DNA of 64,000 nt, taken from NCBI GenBank assembly GCA_021413735.1, contig JAIOPV010000012.1, positions 18,811-82,810 of the forward strand, in the 5' to 3' direction. This document shows positions 18,319 to 51,535 of this stretch, piece after piece. This stretch comes from Planctomycetota bacterium. Lineage in GTDB: Bacteria > Planctomycetota > Planctomycetia > Gemmatales > Gemmataceae. The notes beneath the pieces were generated by a model that did not search any database, was not told the origin of the DNA, and worked only from the letters and a program-made list of their open reading frames with translations. A program made the position numbers and the translations under genes. Position 1 is the first letter of the stretch. Each line of letters opens with the position of its first letter.

Positions 18319-19317
18319 TTACCCTTTCCGGCGGCGGGTGGCCGCCACGTCTGGGTTCACCCAGTTCGGGAGCGGTTCGCCCTTAACGCCAGCGACGAGG
18401 TTGTTCGCGCACAACCTCGCCATTGCGTTGCGTGTGTCGATCGTCGCGCTTGCGATGTGCGGAGCGATGACGCAGTTCGCCAACTGATACAACTCGTGTT
18501 CTGGCGGCAGCGGCTCGGGTTCCGTGACATCCAACCCCGCCGCGAAGATCGTTCCGTTGCGAAGTGCCTCAGCGAGTGCGGGCTGATCTACGAGCGGCCC
18601 CCGCGACGTGTTCACGAACACCGCCGTCCGCTTCATTTTCTTGAACTGCGTCGCACTGAATAGCCCCTTCGTCGAAGGGTTCAGGTCGGCGTGAACCGAC
18701 ACGAAATCACTCTGTGCGAGCAGATCATCGAGTTCCAGACGCTTCGCGCCGAGTTCCTTCTCGGCCTCCACGCTTGGCGACCGCTTCGTGTAAAGCACCT
18801 TCATGCCCCAGCCATGATGAAGGCGTTTCGCGGTGGCGAAGCCGATGCGCCCCATGCCGACGATTCCGAGCGTGCGGCCCGCGAGATCCTGCCCCAACCA
18901 GCCGAGTGGTTCCCACGTCAACCAGCGACCAGCCTTCGCGTCGGCAGCACTTTCTGCGATTCGTCTGGCGGCGTTCAACAACAGCGTCACGGCAATGTCG
19001 GCGGTTGCGTCCGTGAGAACGCCAGGCGTGTTTCCGACGCAGACCCCACGCTGCGTACACGCGGGCACATCCACGTTGTTGTAGCCGACCGCGAAGTTGC
19101 TCACGACCTTTAGCCGTGGGGCGGCATCGAGCAACGCACCATCGACGCGATCCGTGAGCAGCGACACGAGGCCATCGCAATCCTTCACGCGATCACGCAG
19201 CACGTCGGCAGAGGGCGGCAACTGATTCGGCCACACATCGACGTCGCACACAGCGGAGATCGCATTCAAACCCTCGTCGGGGATGCGACGGGCGACGAAG
19301 ACCTTTGGACGCGACAT
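18319..19317 (-). CDS. D-2-hydroxyacid dehydrogenase (glyoxylate/hydroxypyruvate reductase type)
   Basis: About 332 aa from ATG 19317. Rossmann motif LGIVGMGRIGFATAKRL near residue 150; catalytic triad Arg in FVNTSRGPLVDQPAL, Glu in DVTEPEPLPPEH and His in IAPHIASATIDTRNAM. The sequence VARRIPDEGLNAI at the start resembles glyoxylate reductases/D-glycerate dehydrogenases. It reduces glyoxylate or hydroxypyruvate with NAD(P)H. A glycerate kinase lies 7 kb away at 25988, a possible partner in a glycolate/glycerate route. Convergent with the LCCL gene. Confidence 0.92.
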   Translation of the reverse strand: MSRPKVFVARRIPDEGLNAISAVCDVDVWPNQLPPSADVLRDRVKDCDGLVSLLTDRVDGALLDAAPRLKVVSNFAVGYNNVDVPACTQRGVCVGNTPGVLTDATADIAVTLLLNAARRIAESAADAKAGRWLTWEPLGWLGQDLAGRTLGIVGMGRIGFATAKRLHHGWGMKVLYTKRSPSVEAEKELGAKRLELDDLLAQSDFVSVHADLNPSTKGLFSATQFKKMKRTAVFVNTSRGPLVDQPALAEALRNGTIFAAGLDVTEPEPLPPEHELYQLANCVIAPHIASATIDTRNAMARLCANNLVAGVKGEPLPNWVNPDVAATRRRKG

Positions 19318-27963: not shown

Positions 27964-29961
27964 ATGAACCGGGCGTGGATCGCAGCGGCCGGGCTGAACC
28001 GGCGAAAATTCCTGGCCTTGTCTGCCGCCGTTGGGCTGGCTGGACTCGGCAGCGGATGCAAAGGGCCGGAAGCCGAGAAGCTGAAGGAAGCGCAGGGGCG
28101 GTCGCAGATCGGCGAGGATCCGGCGGACCTCGACGCCGCCACGACCATCGGCAGCAAGACCACCATCGGCAACACCGAATCCATCGTCGTGAGCGGTGTC
28201 GGTTTGGTGTACGGCTTGCCTGGAACCGGGAGCAGTGCTCCGCCCGGCGGCTGGCGCATGATGCTTGAGGAGAGCCTCAAGCGAATGCCGAATATGTCGA
28301 ACATCAAGCAGATGCTCGATGACCCGGGCAAAACGACATCTCTCGTTCTGGTATCGGCGTTGGTTCTGCCGGGGGCACGCAAGGGCGACCTCATCGACGT
28401 GCAGATTTCGCTGCCCGATGAGAGCAAGACGACGAGCCTCAAGGGCGGCAAACTGCTGCTGTGCGAACTGCACAACACCGACACCACCGGCAACTTGAAG
28501 TCGTTGGTTCAGGAAGGCAAGACGGCCGCTCCCAGCGGGGAACTCCGCAAGGGCGATCGTTGGGCCATCGCGGAAGGTCCGGTTCTCGCGGGTCAGTTCA
28601 TTCCTGGAAACGGGAAGGGCACCGTCGAGACGGATGCCGACGGTCAACCGCTGTTCAAGGTCGGCAAGATCTGGGGTGGTGGGAAGGTCACGAAGGCCCG
28701 TCAGTATTTCATCCTGATTAACTCGGGTAGCCAAAGCCCGCAGATGGCGGCTTCGCTCGCGGAACGGCTCAACAGCACATTCCACGCGACCTCCGAGCCG
28801 AACCTCAAAGTGGCCGACGCCAAGGATCGCCAGTTGATCCTGTTGAACGTGCCGATGGCGTATCGCAACAACCACTACCGGTTCTTACTCGTCGCGCGAC
28901 AAGTGCCTGTCCTCCCGGCGAACAACGACAGCCTTTATCGCAAGAAACTGGAGGAAGAACTGCTCGAACCGTCCACGGCTCTCGTCGCGGCGGTCAAGCT
29001 CGAAGCGTTGGGTTCGTCGAGCATGCGGGCGTTGCGTGTCGGGTTGGAAAGCCCGTCGCCGTGGGTTCGCTTCGCGGCAGGGGAAGCGCTGACGTACCTC
29101 GGTCAGACCGATGGTGCGGTGGAACTCGCGAAGTTGGCCGAAGACCATCCTGCTCTTCGCGCTCCGGCTCTGAAGGCACTCGCCTCGATGGACGATGCGG
29201 CCTGCACCGATCGCCTCGTGGAACTGACCGCGAACAACGATCCGACGCTTCGTTATGGTGCGTTCCTCGCGCTACGAATGGCGGACGAGAACAACGCCGT
29301 GGCTCGCGGAATGCTCGTGAACAACTCGTTCTGGCTGCACCAACTCGCACCGAGCAGTTCGTCCATGATTCACCTGACGACGGATCACCGTTGCGAGGTG
29401 GTACTGTTCGGCGATGCTCCGAAACTTCGCGGACCGTTCACGCTGCCGGTGGGAACTGAGTTCACGGTGAGCGTGTCGGCCAGCGGAAACGAGGCGACGG
29501 TCACTCGCATCGTGAAGGTGAAGCACGATCTGGAGGATAAGAAGCTGACTTGCAAGCCGACGCTGGCGGATGTGCTTGTGAAGATTGGTCAGCTTGGCGG
29601 CACCTACTCGGAAGCGGTTGAGTTGATCCGTCGTGCGGATCGTGGTCAGGTGTTGTCGGCAGCGGTGGTGATCGACGCAGTTCCGGCTGAGTTGAACATT
29701 CGGCAGCTCGCGAGTTTCGCACGAAACGATCCGACGCTGACCCGTGCGAATGTCGAGATTGCTCGGGCGGGTGTGGTTCGACCAGACCTCGATGTGTCTG
29801 GTTTCGATCTGCCGGCGACGACCAGCGACACGGCTCCTGCGGTTGTTGCGACGCCACCGCGTCCGCCGTTGAACCGTGAGCCTGGCCGCATCTTTGGCTC
29901 GAAGCGTCATGAAGCGCCTGCGATTGATCCTGGCGTGGTGCCCGCGACTGGAGATCAGTAG
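27964..29961 (+). CDS. FlgI-like domain plus HEAT repeats, exported lipoprotein
   Basis: About 665 aa from ATG 27964. The N-terminus combines twin-arginine features (LNRRKFLALSAAVGLAG) with a lipobox-like GLGSGC. Residues 60-330 resemble FlgI, the flagellar P-ring protein: VVSGVGLVYGLPGTGS, LVSALVLPGARKGDLIDVQI and TTSLKGGKLLLCEL. A HEAT-repeat region follows (GLESPSPWVRFAAGEALTYL, APALKALASMDDAACTDRL), then a C-terminal domain and a Pro-rich tail. No flagellar gene is nearby, so this looks like a FlgI fold reused as an envelope ring or scaffold. The sigma-54 promoter 490 bp upstream may drive it through a long leader. Confidence 0.8.
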   Translation: MNRAWIAAAGLNRRKFLALSAAVGLAGLGSGCKGPEAEKLKEAQGRSQIGEDPADLDAATTIGSKTTIGNTESIVVSGVGLVYGLPGTGSSAPPGGWRMMLEESLKRMPNMSNIKQMLDDPGKTTSLVLVSALVLPGARKGDLIDVQISLPDESKTTSLKGGKLLLCELHNTDTTGNLKSLVQEGKTAAPSGELRKGDRWAIAEGPVLAGQFIPGNGKGTVETDADGQPLFKVGKIWGGGKVTKARQYFILINSGSQSPQMAASLAERLNSTFHATSEPNLKVADAKDRQLILLNVPMAYRNNHYRFLLVARQVPVLPANNDSLYRKKLEEELLEPSTALVAAVKLEALGSSSMRALRVGLESPSPWVRFAAGEALTYLGQTDGAVELAKLAEDHPALRAPALKALASMDDAACTDRLVELTANNDPTLRYGAFLALRMADENNAVARGMLVNNSFWLHQLAPSSSSMIHLTTDHRCEVVLFGDAPKLRGPFTLPVGTEFTVSVSASGNEATVTRIVKVKHDLEDKKLTCKPTLADVLVKIGQLGGTYSEAVELIRRADRGQVLSAAVVIDAVPAELNIRQLASFARNDPTLTRANVEIARAGVVRPDLDVSGFDLPATTSDTAPAVVATPPRPPLNREPGRIFGSKRHEAPAIDPGVVPATGDQ

Positions 29962-39676: not shown

Positions 39677-40294
39677 TCAGTTCCGACCTTTGCCTCGGAG
39701 CGTGCGATTTTCGGTCAGCACGAGATCCATGTACACATCGTGCGACGACACGGGAATCTCGTCGAAGATCTGGCAGTCGAACGCCATTCCCACGAGTTGA
39801 GCGTCTCGGCGAGCGTTGGCCAGTAAGCGATCGTAGTAGCCCTTGCCCTGCCCCATGCGGCCGCCGTGCGGGTCGAACGCGGTGCCGGGCACCATCACCA
39901 AGTCGAGTTCCTCCGCCTGAATCAACTTCGTCGGAAGCAGACGCAACTCAGCATTCGGCTCCAGAATCTTGTACGCTCCTTCGACCAACTCGCTCATGTC
40001 TTCGAGCAGGAAAAGTTCGAGCGTGTTCGTTTCCACGATGCACCACGGCACCACGACTCGCTTGCGGTGTGTGAGGGCTTGCGGAAGCGTGTGCCTCGTT
40101 CGGACTTCGCTGCCCGCATCGACGTACCACATCACCGTTTTCGCGTCGGCATACGCGGGCAACGCGGTGAACTTATCGCAGATCAGCCGGCTCACCTCGT
40201 CCTTGTTCTTCTGGGCGACTCGGTTCTTCCGGGCCTGCTCGCGAATGGCGGCTTTGCGTGATTGCGGGTCATTCGGAACGGTCGGTTCGGGCAT
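39677..40294 (-). CDS. 5-formyltetrahydrofolate cyclo-ligase
   Basis: About 205 aa from ATG 40294. N-terminal RKAAIREQARKNR helix, VVPWCIVETNTLELFLL substrate region, VMVPGTAFDPHGGRMGQGKG and YYDRLLA, the ATP/folate-binding signature. It converts 5-formyl-THF to 5,10-methenyl-THF in the cytosol. It meets the DAC gene tail to tail with only 3 bp between stop codons. Upstream is a 129-bp divergent gap shared with the SWIM gene. Confidence 0.92.
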   Translation of the reverse strand: MPEPTVPNDPQSRKAAIREQARKNRVAQKNKDEVSRLICDKFTALPAYADAKTVMWYVDAGSEVRTRHTLPQALTHRKRVVVPWCIVETNTLELFLLEDMSELVEGAYKILEPNAELRLLPTKLIQAEELDLVMVPGTAFDPHGGRMGQGKGYYDRLLANARRDAQLVGMAFDCQIFDEIPVSSHDVYMDLVLTENRTLRGKGRN

Positions 40295-47079: not shown

Positions 47080-47107
47080 ATTGCCAGGTGAGGGTAAAGT
47101 GATAAGG
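47080..47107 (+). promoter_or_regulatory. Candidate promoter of the cobalamin-riboswitch transcript
   Basis: TTGCCA at 47080-47085 and TAAGGT at 47102-47107 with a 16-base spacer, placing transcription start near 47114, immediately at the riboswitch. Confidence 0.4.
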
Positions 47108-47111
47108 TAAT

Positions 47112-47290
47112 GCCCGACGGGTGTTCGCGTGGTGATTCCGCCACATGAACCGAAGAGGGAAGCCGGTGAGAATCCGGCGCAGGGCCGCTGCTGTGTTCGG
47201 TCAGAGTCCGGGCAAAACGCCACTGCGGGAAACCGTGGGAAGGCCGCTCGACTCGTAAAGAACCGAGAGTCAGAAGACCTGCCCGTCGCA
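47112..47290 (+). ncRNA. Cobalamin riboswitch
   Basis: The conserved core reads in order GAGGGAAGCCGGTGAGAATC, CCGGCGCAGGGCCGCTGCTG, GCCACTGCGGGAAACCGTGG, GGAAGGC and the B12 box AGAGTCAGAAGACCTGCC. These match the class-defining stretches GGGAA-CCGGTG-A-TCCGG, GCCACTG...TGGGAAGGC and GAGCCAGGAGACCTGCC. A helix GTTC/GAAC enclosing GTGG/CCAC precedes the core. The first gene downstream is a DUF1559 protein at 47468, then an SGNH hydrolase, neither a known cobalamin gene. It should lower expression when cobalamin binds; this is the usual mode, not shown here. Confidence 0.93.
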
Positions 47291-47293
47291 TTC

Positions 47294-47327
47294 CGCGGCA
47301 TCTGAGTGAATGAAAACTCGGATGTCG
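47294..47327 (+). promoter_or_regulatory. Hairpin after riboswitch, possible expression platform
   Basis: Thirteen-bp stem (two G-T pairs) with an 8-base loop, four bases after the B12 box. No T-run follows, so an anti-terminator/terminator switch is not obvious; it might instead control RNA access for Rho or translation. Confidence 0.5.
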
Positions 47328-47467
47328 CTTGTCGTTCGGGGCCTCGGTTCCAGGCTTCCGGGCGGGCCGGTTATGTCCCGCGCTGCAAGTCGCAGCCACC
47401 GCCCCGTTCCGTTCCTGGATTGCGCCCCGACTCGTCCGCCCGACCCGGCGGACAGGAGCGAAGTCCA

Positions 47468-48283
47468 ATGGTCCGTTCTCTTCGAGTGCTTCCCCCACGC
47501 CAAGCCTTCACGCTGATCGAACTGCTGGTTGTCATCGCGATCATCGCGGTGCTGATCGGGCTGCTGTTGCCTGCCGTGCAAAAGGTGCGAATGGCCGCGG
47601 CTCGGGCGAAGGGTCAGAGCAACCTCAAGCAACTCGCCCTCTCGTTGCACAACTACGAGTCTGCGCAACAGAAGTTCCCGCCGCACACGGACTCTTCCGC
47701 AGCGTGGCCGAATGCGAAGAACTGGTTTGGGTCGAGCGTGAGCAATACTTCCGCACCTTACAACGTCCTGTCGGTTGACCCGACTGCTGGGATTCTGACG
47801 CCGTACTACGAGAACAATGTGCGGGTGAACAACTGCCCGATGTTCGATGCCTATCCCATCAGCAAGATCTATAGCGGCCTGACGGCGGGCTACGCTTACA
47901 ACCGCCACATCTCGAACGAACCCGCGTGGCCGAATCCAATCACCGGCAAGCGATTCGGAGACTTCCAGGCCACGTCGGCGACGGTTGCGTTCGCGGAAGT
48001 AGTTCAACTTCAGAGCAACGGCACTCTTCAGGAACCACTCGGGGGTTACTTTGGTTCGCCGTATGTCGCGAGCAAAGCCATTACGTCCTCGGCGGTGACT
48101 GCATCTCAGTTTCGGTTTGCGGGTGTCTGCAATGTCGCGTTCCTGGATGGCCACGTTGAAACCCGCACGCCGGTTGATTTGCCGTCGATTGCACCGTTTA
48201 CCCAGGCGACTTGGGACACGGCGAAGACGAAGTATTCGCTTGGATTTCTGACAAGCAATGCGACCGAGTACACTGGACAGTGA
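47468..48283 (+). CDS. DUF1559 protein under a cobalamin riboswitch
   Basis: About 271 aa from ATG 47468; the ORF track's upstream 54 codons lie in the riboswitch leader. Prepilin motif [19 protein letters not shown], then [20 protein letters not shown] and LHNYES. It is shorter than the other copies, has a Tyr/Asn-rich middle ([20 protein letters not shown]) and a C-terminal [13 protein letters not shown] with the typical DGHV. It is the only one of the four with a cobalamin riboswitch ahead, suggesting a surface role linked to vitamin B12, for example scavenging. That is inference. SGNH hydrolase gene follows 56 bp later. Confidence 0.9.
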
Positions 48284-49054: not shown

Positions 49055-50512
49055 TCACGCCAAGATGTCTTTCACGACGGTGCCGGCCACGTCGGTCAGA
49101 CGGAAGTCGCGGCCGTTGTAGCGATACGTCAGCTTCTTGTGGTCGAGCCCCATCAGGTGAAGCACGGTCGCGTGGAAGTCGTTGACGCTCACGCGATTCT
49201 CTTCTGCCTTGAAGCCGATCTCATCCGACGCCCCGTAGCTGACGCCGCCCTTCACGCCGCCGCCGGCCATCCAGTACGTGATTGCGTGTGGGTTGTGGTC
49301 ACGCCCCGCGTTCCCCTTCTGCACGATCGGCAACCGACCGAACTCGCCGCCCCAGATTACGAGCGTGTCGTCGAGCAAACCGCGACGGCTCAGGTCTTCG
49401 AGCAACCCCGCGATCGGCTGATCCGTTTCCTGTGCGAACCCGCCGTGGTTCTTCGCGATGTTGTTGTGGCCGTCCCAACTCAGATCGTTCTCCATGCCGC
49501 CGCTGTAAATCTGCACGAAGCGAACGCCGCGTTCCACGAGCCGACGCGCGATGAGGCACTGCTTCGCGAAGTGTGTCGCCTTCGGATTGTCGAGGCCGTA
49601 CAGCTTCTTGGTTTCTTGCGTTTCCTTGTTGAGATCGAGCGCATCCGGAGCGGCCATCTGCATCCGATACGCCAGCTCGAATGTCTCGACGCGAGCCGTG
49701 AGTTCCGGTTCGTTGGGAGTCTTCGCGGCACCTTGCTTGTTCAACTTCGCGAGCAGATCGAGTTGCTGACGCTGCCGGTCGGCGGTGAGGTCGGTTGGCC
49801 GTGTGAGGTTCTCGATCGGTTCGCCCTGCGGCTTGAATGCGGTGCCCTGGTAGACTGTCGGCAGGAACCCCGCACCCCAGTTCAGCGAGTGACCTTTCGG
49901 GATGCCGCGACCGAGCGTGTCGTACATGACGCAGAACGCGGGCAGGCTCTGCGACTCGGTGCCGAGGCCATACGTGACCCAACTGCCGACGCACGGGAAG
50001 CCCATGCGAGCCATGCCGGTATTCATCTTGAAGAGCGCCGGCGAGTGGTTGTTCGAGTCGCTCCACAGCGAATGGATGAACGCCATCTTGTCGACGTGCT
50101 TCGCCATGTGCGGGAAGATTTCCGACACCATTTTGCCGCACTGTCCGTGCTTCGCCCACTTGAACGGCGACTTCATCAGCGGCCCGACCTGCCCTGTGAA
50201 GAAGCCTGTGTTCGGGTCGAAGCCTTTGAGTTCTTGGCCGTCCTTCTTTTCGAGTTCGGGCTTGTAATCCCAGGTGTCAACCTGCGACGGCCCGCCGTTC
50301 ATGAACAGCCAGATGACTCGCTTGGCCTTCGCGGGGAAGTGCGGTTCGTGCGGCGTGAGCGGCCCCGGCGTGACGGTAGTTTTCGGTTCGTCGGCACGGA
50401 GTAGGTCGGCGAGCGCGAGCATGCCGAAGCCACCGCCGGCGCGGCTCAGGAACTCACGACGGGAGTTGTAGGCAGCTTCTGGCGACGCGAACCAGCGTGG
50501 GAAGTCGAGCAT
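49055..50512 (-). CDS. DUF1501 domain protein without adjacent cytochrome partner
   Basis: 485 aa. Tat-like signal (NSRREFLSRAGGGFGMLAL). Family blocks match the copy at 1183: RVIWLFMNGGPSQVDTWDYK, NNHSPALFKMNTGMARMG, VIWGGEFGRLPIVQ, GRDHNPHAITYWMAGGGVKG and HDFHATVLHLMG-like FNDFHATVLHLMGLDHKKLT. Unlike that copy no DUF1549/DUF1553 gene lies upstream within the 440-bp gap or beyond, so its partner must be elsewhere. Exported; role unknown. Confidence 0.92.
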   Translation of the reverse strand: MLDFPRWFASPEAAYNSRREFLSRAGGGFGMLALADLLRADEPKTTVTPGPLTPHEPHFPAKAKRVIWLFMNGGPSQVDTWDYKPELEKKDGQELKGFDPNTGFFTGQVGPLMKSPFKWAKHGQCGKMVSEIFPHMAKHVDKMAFIHSLWSDSNNHSPALFKMNTGMARMGFPCVGSWVTYGLGTESQSLPAFCVMYDTLGRGIPKGHSLNWGAGFLPTVYQGTAFKPQGEPIENLTRPTDLTADRQRQQLDLLAKLNKQGAAKTPNEPELTARVETFELAYRMQMAAPDALDLNKETQETKKLYGLDNPKATHFAKQCLIARRLVERGVRFVQIYSGGMENDLSWDGHNNIAKNHGGFAQETDQPIAGLLEDLSRRGLLDDTLVIWGGEFGRLPIVQKGNAGRDHNPHAITYWMAGGGVKGGVSYGASDEIGFKAEENRVSVNDFHATVLHLMGLDHKKLTYRYNGRDFRLTDVAGTVVKDILA

Positions 50513-50982
50513 GAGGAGATCCGGTTGTCGTTTTCGTGGCGGGAGCGGACGCTTGCTGTGGGCAACGGCGGTTCAATGAAGATTAACCCGCAGAGGCGGC
50601 GACAGCAAGCGCGTGAGATTCGCCACCTCGTCCCGGAGTCAACGCTTCACGAGAGTCAAACGTGAAACTCGCTGCAATTTGATTCCGGACGACTTCCCCA
50701 CCCCACGTCCGGAAACAACCGTTTCAGACCCGGAATCACCATTTCAGGTCCGGAACCATCCACTCTCGTCCGGAAGAAACTCTATCAGAACGACGCTGTT
50801 CGCCGCATCCCACGAGAAACAAATCACTTGCGAATTTCGACCGCAATTCATGCCACACAGAACCGCCGAGCTCACTCCGGAATCAAGTAATACCCTTTGC
50901 CACCGCCCCAATCGTAGCGCATGGAACTGATAGTCACTTCACGCCGCCACTCTTGGCGGCAGCGTATTTTCAGGTCGCCGCA
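50513..50982. other. 470-bp intergenic gap with phased CCGGAA array
   Basis: No credible gene. It separates two divergent genes. The notable content is a CCGGAA repeat array at 50683-50775 (separate entry). Nothing else recognised apart from a possible long leader for the plus-strand gene. Confidence 0.7.
50683..50775. repeat. Helically phased (G)TCCGGAA repeats
   Basis: TTCCGGAC at 50683 is inverted relative to four direct copies starting at 50707 (GTCCGGAA), 50728 (ACCCGGAA), 50748 (GTCCGGAA) and 50768 (GTCCGGAA). Spacings are 21, 20 and 20 bp, close to two DNA turns, and a TTTCA element recurs before two of them. This resembles an array of sites for a dimeric DNA-binding protein. Confidence 0.65.
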
Positions 50983-51456
50983 ATGCTTAACATCACCCCA
51001 GAAGTGGAGGCGATCCTCCAGTTCGCCGCGAAGCTCCGTGCCGAAGGCTCGTCTTGGAACGCTGTCGCTCGCGCCGTTGACTACGACGCCGATGACCTCG
51101 AACAACTCTGCAAAGATGCTGGAAAGGTCTACCAACTACTCTACTCGAAAGCGAGGCGAGCGGTCGTGCGCGAAAGCCTGGCCGAATCCATGTTCACGCT
51201 GCGGCGGTTGCTTCGAGAAGGGAACGCTCGCGAATCCCGACACGCCGCCGAGTGCCTCGCTCGCATCAGCATGACATTCGTTCGGCACCGGCAACGCAGT
51301 AAGGCCAACGAGCCGAAACCCGATCCGCGTCTCGAAGGATTGCGTGAGGAAGATATTGAGTTGGTGAAGTGGCTATCCACGAAAACCGACGAGGAGATTG
51401 CTGAGTTCGCCCAAAGGCGAACTCAGCCACCCACACTACCCGAAGCAGAAAAGTAG
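50983..51456 (+). CDS. Unknown helical protein, possibly DNA-binding
   Basis: About 157 aa from ATG 50983 (the ORF-track start is a TTG ten codons earlier). No family recognised. The N-terminal 60 residues, EAILQFAAKLRAEGSSWNAV and ARAVDYDADDLEQLCKD, look like a helix-turn-helix of the kind seen in small phage or resolvase-like regulators; the middle is Arg-rich (ARRAVVRESLAESMFTLRRL). Near-absence of beta propensity throughout. The phased repeat array 200-300 bp upstream could be its own operator (inference). Confidence 0.62.
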   Translation: MLNITPEVEAILQFAAKLRAEGSSWNAVARAVDYDADDLEQLCKDAGKVYQLLYSKARRAVVRESLAESMFTLRRLLREGNARESRHAAECLARISMTFVRHRQRSKANEPKPDPRLEGLREEDIELVKWLSTKTDEEIAEFAQRRTQPPTLPEAEK

Positions 51457-51515
51457 GTCAGGCTTTCGAGCCTGACTCCGAAGGCCGAAGGGTCAGGCTC
51501 GAAAGCCTGACCTAC
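51453..51515. repeat. 24-bp perfect inverted repeat between convergent genes
   Basis: Arms 51453-51476 and 51492-51515 are exact reverse complements with a 15-base spacer; each arm is itself nearly palindromic (GTCAGGCT..AGCCTGAC). The left arm overlaps the stop of the upstream gene. Likely bidirectional terminator and dispersed repeat. Confidence 0.85.
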
Positions 51516-51535
51516 AACTGAGTTGCAAGAGACCA

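Follow-up and report, generated by a model that had tools for sequence, protein, structure and literature searches.

The phased CCGGAA boxes that separate a DUF1501 gene from the gene for a 157-aa protein are, with high confidence, the core of an old, immobile and non-autonomous element of about 282 bp, which resembles a miniature inverted-repeat element (MITE) and has spread through its genome by transposition. Copies of the element are dispersed, near-identical and have no internal gene, the full-length ones carry terminal inverted repeats (TIRs) and 9-bp target-site duplications (TSDs), most orthologous sites in a relative are empty, and the number of boxes varies while the boxes themselves are near-invariant. 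The window, by which we mean the whole stretch of 64,000 nucleotides that was analysed, corresponds to positions 18811–82810 of contig C162 in G000, a draft genome of 9.8 Mb in 293 contigs.

Direct reading and a script place one inverted TTCCGG and four direct CCGGAA boxes exactly where the initial annotation had seen a phased array (Table 1), with box starts 26 bp and then 21, 20 and 20 bp apart. CCGGAA is their common core, within GTCCGGAA in three of the boxes and CCCGGAA in the second, and a further CCGGAA, the closing box of Table 1, lies beyond the interval that had been annotated (50683–50775). The 20–21-bp period is slightly less than two full helical turns, so that the 61 bp covered by three steps leave a drift of about 70 degrees. 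Chains of at least three boxes at 19–22 bp were absent from all 200 windows simulated with a dinucleotide-Markov model of the window.

The copy in the window aligns over its full length with two full-length copies, L156 and L145, and its ends were set by this homology, at −67 from TTCCGG and +127 from the last box. Its terminal repeats are off consensus at 15 of 38 positions as against 0 of 36 in its six boxes, and its own TSD is no longer recognizable. The decay of the repeats and the loss of the duplication mark this copy as old and immobile, and the array is, as judged from its sequence, the middle of such a MITE-like copy. Within left arms (window 50645–50660 and related ones) GAGTCAA, which is TTGACT on the other strand, is found 23 nt from the leader box, or TTGACA 33 nt from it, and these two classes differ by one helical turn. 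A sigma-70 promoter fused to the array was considered for the TTGAC found past the leader on the strand that faces the gene, at 23 nt in 21 copies and at 33 nt in 6, and was rejected, as no consistent −10 box was seen by eye and TTGAC is part of the left arm of the element.

Table 1. Anatomy of the element copy in the window and its two flanking genes (window coordinates)
Feature	Position	Strand	Remarks
DUF1501 gene	49055–50512	−	gene start lies towards the leader, 170 bp from TTCCGG; Pfam PF07394, E 2.4e-159
Whole MITE-like element, '107' subfamily, decayed full-length (by homology)	50616–50897	+	282 bp, the length of L145 and L156; end-to-end homology with full-length copies bearing TIRs and 9-bp TSDs
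Left terminal inverted repeat, decayed	50616–50638	+	9 of 23 positions differ from consensus GGGTGTGCCACCGGTTTGCGGAG
Left arm	50639–50682	+	GAGTCAA-type motifs (TTGACT on the other strand)
Inverted box TTCCGG, opens the leader	50683–50688	−	invariant in 59 aligned copies (alignment anchored on TTCCGG)
Leader ACGACTTCCCCACCCCACGT	50689–50708	+	fixed 20 bp, inverted box to first direct box; leader pattern with 131 genome matches, 0 in control
Box 1, CCGGAA	50709–50714	+	
Box 2, CCGGAA	50730–50735	+	
Box 3, CCGGAA	50750–50755	+	
Box 4, CCGGAA, last box, followed by GAAACTCTATCAGAA	50770–50775	+	
Right module, 107 subfamily, includes CTTGCGA	50776–50876	+	81% identity to L145; family without significant RNA fold
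Closing box CCGGAA, inner edge of the right terminal repeat	50877–50882	+	
Right terminal repeat, decayed	50883–50897	+	6 of 15 positions differ
157-aa protein gene	50983–51456	+	85 bp beyond the element; no Pfam hit; weak PHROG hit, E 0.053

When the whole genome was searched, as the initial annotation had suggested, the three-box pattern CCGGAA-N13..17-CCGGAA-N13..17-CCGGAA gave 203 matches and the 32-bp leader pattern, from the inverted box to the first direct box, gave 131, with none for either pattern in the reversed control. The window array therefore belongs to a large dispersed family present at more than 130 places in G000, and these counts, with the simulations, dispose of random occurrence as an account of the spacing. 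The anatomy of the family, drawn from 106 arrays of G000 and 6 of the relative G008 (n = 112), begins with an inverted TTCCGG, followed by a leader of fixed length (consensus n-C-n-A-c-t-t-c-CC-c-ACCCC-a-C-g-t), usually 3 to 9 direct CCGGAA boxes, and GAAAC-tat-ATCAGAA; just two boxes are present in 9 of the 112. Internal boxes are spaced by 21 bp in 123 cases, 20 bp in 54 and 19 or 18 bp in five cases each, and the last spacing is 19 bp in 83 of the 112 arrays. The repeated unit has the consensus CCGGAACCATCATTTCAGGC (20 bp) or CCGGAACCAACCATTTCAGAC (21 bp). Spacer identity is 59% between neighbouring units of one array and 54% between units of different arrays, a slight excess, and the L110 array contains five identical units. 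Some arrays, such as L110, are clearly recent tandem expansions, and part of the even spacing is thus inherited by duplication and not selected for helical phase.

To the right of the array the modules come in alternative discrete lengths of 88, 107, 117 and 122 bp, measured from the last box to the next closing CCGGAA, and because they end in such a box some copies are chained as array-module-array. The whole has a modularity like that of the streptococcal BOX elements, with fixed ends and a variable count of tandem central units. A variant subfamily is represented by L166 (contig C22 of G000, near 29883), with CCGGAATCG units, a CCGGAATGACTTTTATTAGAAC tail and a partly duplicated left part; it resembles older-looking G008 copies (L111).

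All-against-all comparison of the copies with 1.5-kb flanks showed that homology stops within about 70 bp to the left and 130–170 bp to the right of the core, a longer match being seen only between L070 and L079. The ends of the 107 subfamily are inverted repeats (GGGTGTGCCAC..GATTCCGGAG / CTCCGGAATCAAGTGGCACACCC), with the paired repeat present in six copies; the idea that every copy has TIRs was rejected, as only this subfamily passed. Exact 9-bp TSDs flank L093 (AGCGGTCGC), L145 (TCTTCCTTT) and L156 (CACGGGGTT), in each case at −67 relative to the leader box and +128 relative to the last box; L098 matches at 8 of 9 positions, as does L152 by eye if its end is read one base further in. Full-length elements measure 261/262 or 281/282 bp, that is, they are one unit apart. 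Most subfamilies other than 107 have no recognizable TSD, and their members would thus be old, truncated or spread in another way.

Comparison of syntenic sites in G000 and G008 adds the empty sites expected of an inserted sequence. The element is missing from G008 at L081 (intergenic distance 356 bp in G000 versus 98 bp), L148 (361 versus 114 bp) and L152 (383 versus 115 bp), and also at L129 and L096. The insertion at L133(−) is common to the two genomes, and the family therefore predates their split; in G008 this copy has decayed to TTCCaG, CaGGAA and CtGGAA with the last box intact, so that three of the four compared boxes are lost. No gene lies inside the element and no version bearing an open reading frame was found. 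By its sequence, then, the element has the marks of a MITE, being short, non-coding and multi-copy, with TIRs, TSDs and empty orthologous sites, except that no parent was found.

The search for a parent covered the PF01609, PF00872 and PF13808 loci of the 293-contig draft, among which no transposase with a matching terminal repeat was found. There was no IS256-type (PF00872) match in G000, neither the DDE_Tnp_1 loci (PF01609, 14 matches) nor the ISAs1-type loci (PF13808) had a matching repeat pair, and no transposase accompanied the loci that carry only the TIR or six further TIR-like or module-like loci. The terminal repeats of ISAs1 and other DDE transposases differ, and these were rejected as parents; intact ISAs1 elements of G000 and its relatives have other ends (CAGGG-type). 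At L310 (contig C123 of G000, near 40267) a stretch of 11 bp identical to the terminal repeat lies about 600 bp beyond a broken ISAs1-type gene; this is possibly a chance match, and we treat it as a lead only. The broken gene at L310 is followed by a sequence that reads like a group II intron fragment.

The family has a narrow distribution. Among 59 relatives, clear family arrays were seen only in G008, and the exact leader occurred in one other species of the 84,980 searched, Planctomycetaceae bacterium DS2.012 (PNLP01). A viral source was rejected, as the exact leader was not found in 2.9 million viral contigs. Pattern matches in G049, G047, G025 and other relatives have a different unit sequence and seem unrelated or coincidental. 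The planctomycete genome G049 carries an unrelated tandem array of 21–22-bp CCGGAATATCGAAAAACCCTCC units (G049:C1:44463-44642). We found no literature on miniature inverted-repeat elements in Gemmata.

The boxes are conserved far beyond the rest of the element. To avoid choosing copies by their boxes, we collected them with the right module of L145 alone as the query and kept the 13 long matches. In these, 2 of 330 box positions depart from CCGGAA/TTCCGG, where a box was counted only if it had at most one mismatch and boxes lost outright, as in the truncated copy C89, lie outside the 330. In the same 13 copies the right module has 176 mismatches in 1261 positions (14%; Fisher 2e-16 for boxes versus right module), the left arm 73 in 432 and the interior of the leader 13 in 220. 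In C126 and C71 the left ends are eroded and every array box is intact. The initial annotation had read the boxes as protein-binding sites, and that part is likely to be correct, given that they are near-invariant among neighbours 14–17% diverged and that RNA structure found no support; the accompanying idea of a regulator array particular to this locus, or of an iteron cluster, gives way to one of more than 130 dispersed MITE-like copies with TIRs and 9-bp TSDs.

The best hint to the nature of the putative binding sites comes from their orientation. Boxes in the left half (TTCCGG) are oriented like the left terminal repeat and boxes in the right half (CCGGAA) like the right one; each terminal repeat, too, ends in a box. 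This suggests that the boxes are internal copies of a site bound by the transposase or by an accessory protein. A mechanism based on subterminal binding sites is on these grounds the simplest. Each CCGGAA would be a half-site for a DNA-binding protein, and the boxes, few on the left and several in tandem on the right, would serve as subterminal sites either for an accessory protein or for the transposase of a parent that is missing or has escaped recognition. When bound at a spacing of about two turns, this protein could form a cooperative filament that pairs the element ends, and array length would shift through tandem duplication or deletion of the 20–21-bp unit. Selection before insertion, in that only elements with good boxes transpose, would explain much of the box conservation. 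After insertion, the box cluster may go on binding a host protein upstream of promoters. Counted against the transposon reading is that box conservation and the orientation bias described below exceed what a purely parasitic repeat needs once inserted.

With one exception (L080), all G000 arrays with called neighbours are intergenic, and divergent, tandem and convergent gaps hold arrays in roughly the proportions in which they occur among all long gaps of the loci examined. Where the flanking genes run in tandem, the leader is directed at the gene start in 47 cases and points the opposite way in 17 (p = 2e-4), with genes called by a simple hexamer caller that may be wrong in single cases. The adjacent genes are diverse and include rplC, rplM, rplU, frr, metK, leuA, bioB, clpS and DUF1501, as named from their protein sequences, with a Pfam check for the DUF1501 gene of the window. 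At rplM the array is present in G000 only and not in G008, and is placed immediately upstream of a stretch that looks like a promoter and is conserved in both genomes.

These data give some room to a different account of the boxes, which we consider doubtful but possible, namely that transposition dispersed the elements and that the phased boxes now serve a DNA-binding protein of the host as upstream sites at many promoters, with selection keeping the boxes while the rest decays. The unchanged boxes of the window copy beside its decayed terminal repeats, the intact array boxes of C126 and C71, the bias of the leader towards gene starts and the placement at rplM all speak for it, and the intact boxes of old copies, the rplM placement and the orientation bias together leave exaptation as promoter-upstream protein-binding sites possible but unproven. 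Against it, the downstream genes are of every kind, from ribosomal proteins to MetK, LeuA, BioB, ClpS and DUF1501, and show no visible common function, the G008 copy at L133 has lost most of its compared boxes, the divergence of some copies may predate their insertion, an insertion preference could produce the orientation bias, and no DNA-binding protein has been identified for the boxes. It is improbable, in our judgement, that a transposon family seeded one lineage with more than 130 helically phased operator arrays that a host DNA-binding protein then took over as control sites of housekeeping and other genes, in a network that would have arisen after, or been kept only in, this species.

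The 157-aa protein, which was tried as an array-binding factor, was rejected for this role, as those loci of its paralogues that were retrieved have no array and nothing links the protein to the array. Judged by sequence matches, it is a member of an unannotated, lineage-restricted paralogue family, with four copies in G000, five in G008, eight matches in G013, further ones in G014 and weaker ones elsewhere in the genus. Between its gene and the convergent downstream gene lies a long near-perfect palindrome (GGTCAGGCTTTCGAGCCTGAC...GTCAGGCTCGAAAGCCTGACC, window 51455–51530), by its look a two-way terminator or a repetitive palindrome, with ten similar arms in the 0.98 Mb examined. Elsewhere in the window, a Cobalamin riboswitch (47102–47300, + strand; Rfam RF00174, 103.5 bits) directly precedes an open reading frame at 47306–48283 that is prepilin-type-like, with an N-methylation motif, an unusual partner for a B12 riboswitch.

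That the boxes form an ordinary regulon operator array, arisen in place at each promoter, as the initial annotation had it, is now very improbable. The regular 20–21-bp spacing, the near-invariant hexamers and the upstream position would fit such an array, but the roughly 280 bp of common sequence in the 107 subfamily far exceed the information needed to specify some 130 sites in 10 Mb, and the TSDs and empty orthologous sites show insertion. Conservation in close relatives, the lack of which was to count against a regulatory array, was for the most part not found: at most of the orthologous sites that were checked, the nearest relatives have either no array or a decayed one, clear arrays occur in G008 alone of the 59 relatives, and they are not conserved upstream of orthologous genes. 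A structured non-coding RNA, riboswitch-like and with the boxes as paired stems, is scarcely credible; TTCCGG and CCGGAA are complementary and the array stretch has a modestly low folding energy (mean z −1.7 on one strand and −0.9 on the other), but neither the right module nor the left arm folds better than shuffled sequence (mean z −0.2 to −0.4) and Rfam has no match to the element even at E values up to 5. Iterons of a replication origin or partition site, which direct repeats at about two-turn spacing resemble, can be set aside almost entirely, as more than 130 copies are scattered over the contigs and no origin or partition gene lies beside the window copy.

The MITE-like element shares its working principle, and that only, with certain transposons. 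Tn7, Mu and Tn5053/Tn402 have repeated transposase-binding sites of about 20 bp near their ends, in asymmetric numbers on left and right, as the planctomycete element has; their duplications are of 5 bp and their ends mostly begin with TGT, whereas here the duplication is of 9 bp and GGG is found. Like MITEs, the element is short, has no coding capacity and combines terminal inverted repeats and target-site duplications with a high copy number; unlike them, it contains a phased array of boxes that resemble its terminal repeats, no parent insertion sequence was found for it, and it is not highly folded. BOX elements have longer units, of about 45 bp, in contrast to the 19–21-bp units with an almost invariant CCGGAA seen here. 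In anatomy, with no relation in sequence expected, the pneumococcal BOX is the closest system, being non-autonomous and intergenic with fixed ends and variable tandem central units (PMC3049150). BOX elements of Streptococcus pneumoniae and S. suis are dispersed between genes, have fixed left and right modules around these units and are regarded as non-autonomous mobile elements (PMC3049150). They differ in having a predicted RNA fold and in being enriched between convergent genes (PMC3049150), whereas the planctomycete element has no RNA fold and lies mostly upstream of genes.

The family thus offers a clear case of a small bacterial repeat in which the inner, putative protein-binding boxes stay intact while the ends decay, and it is set apart from described MITEs by two features, the phased internal boxes that resemble its terminal repeats and the one-sided placement upstream of genes. 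It also carries a warning, since what looks at a single promoter like a striking array for a regulator may turn out to be a mobile repeat. With more than 130 natural replicates in one genome, the family lends itself to a direct test of the old question whether repeats of this kind are mere junk or come to serve as regulatory sites.
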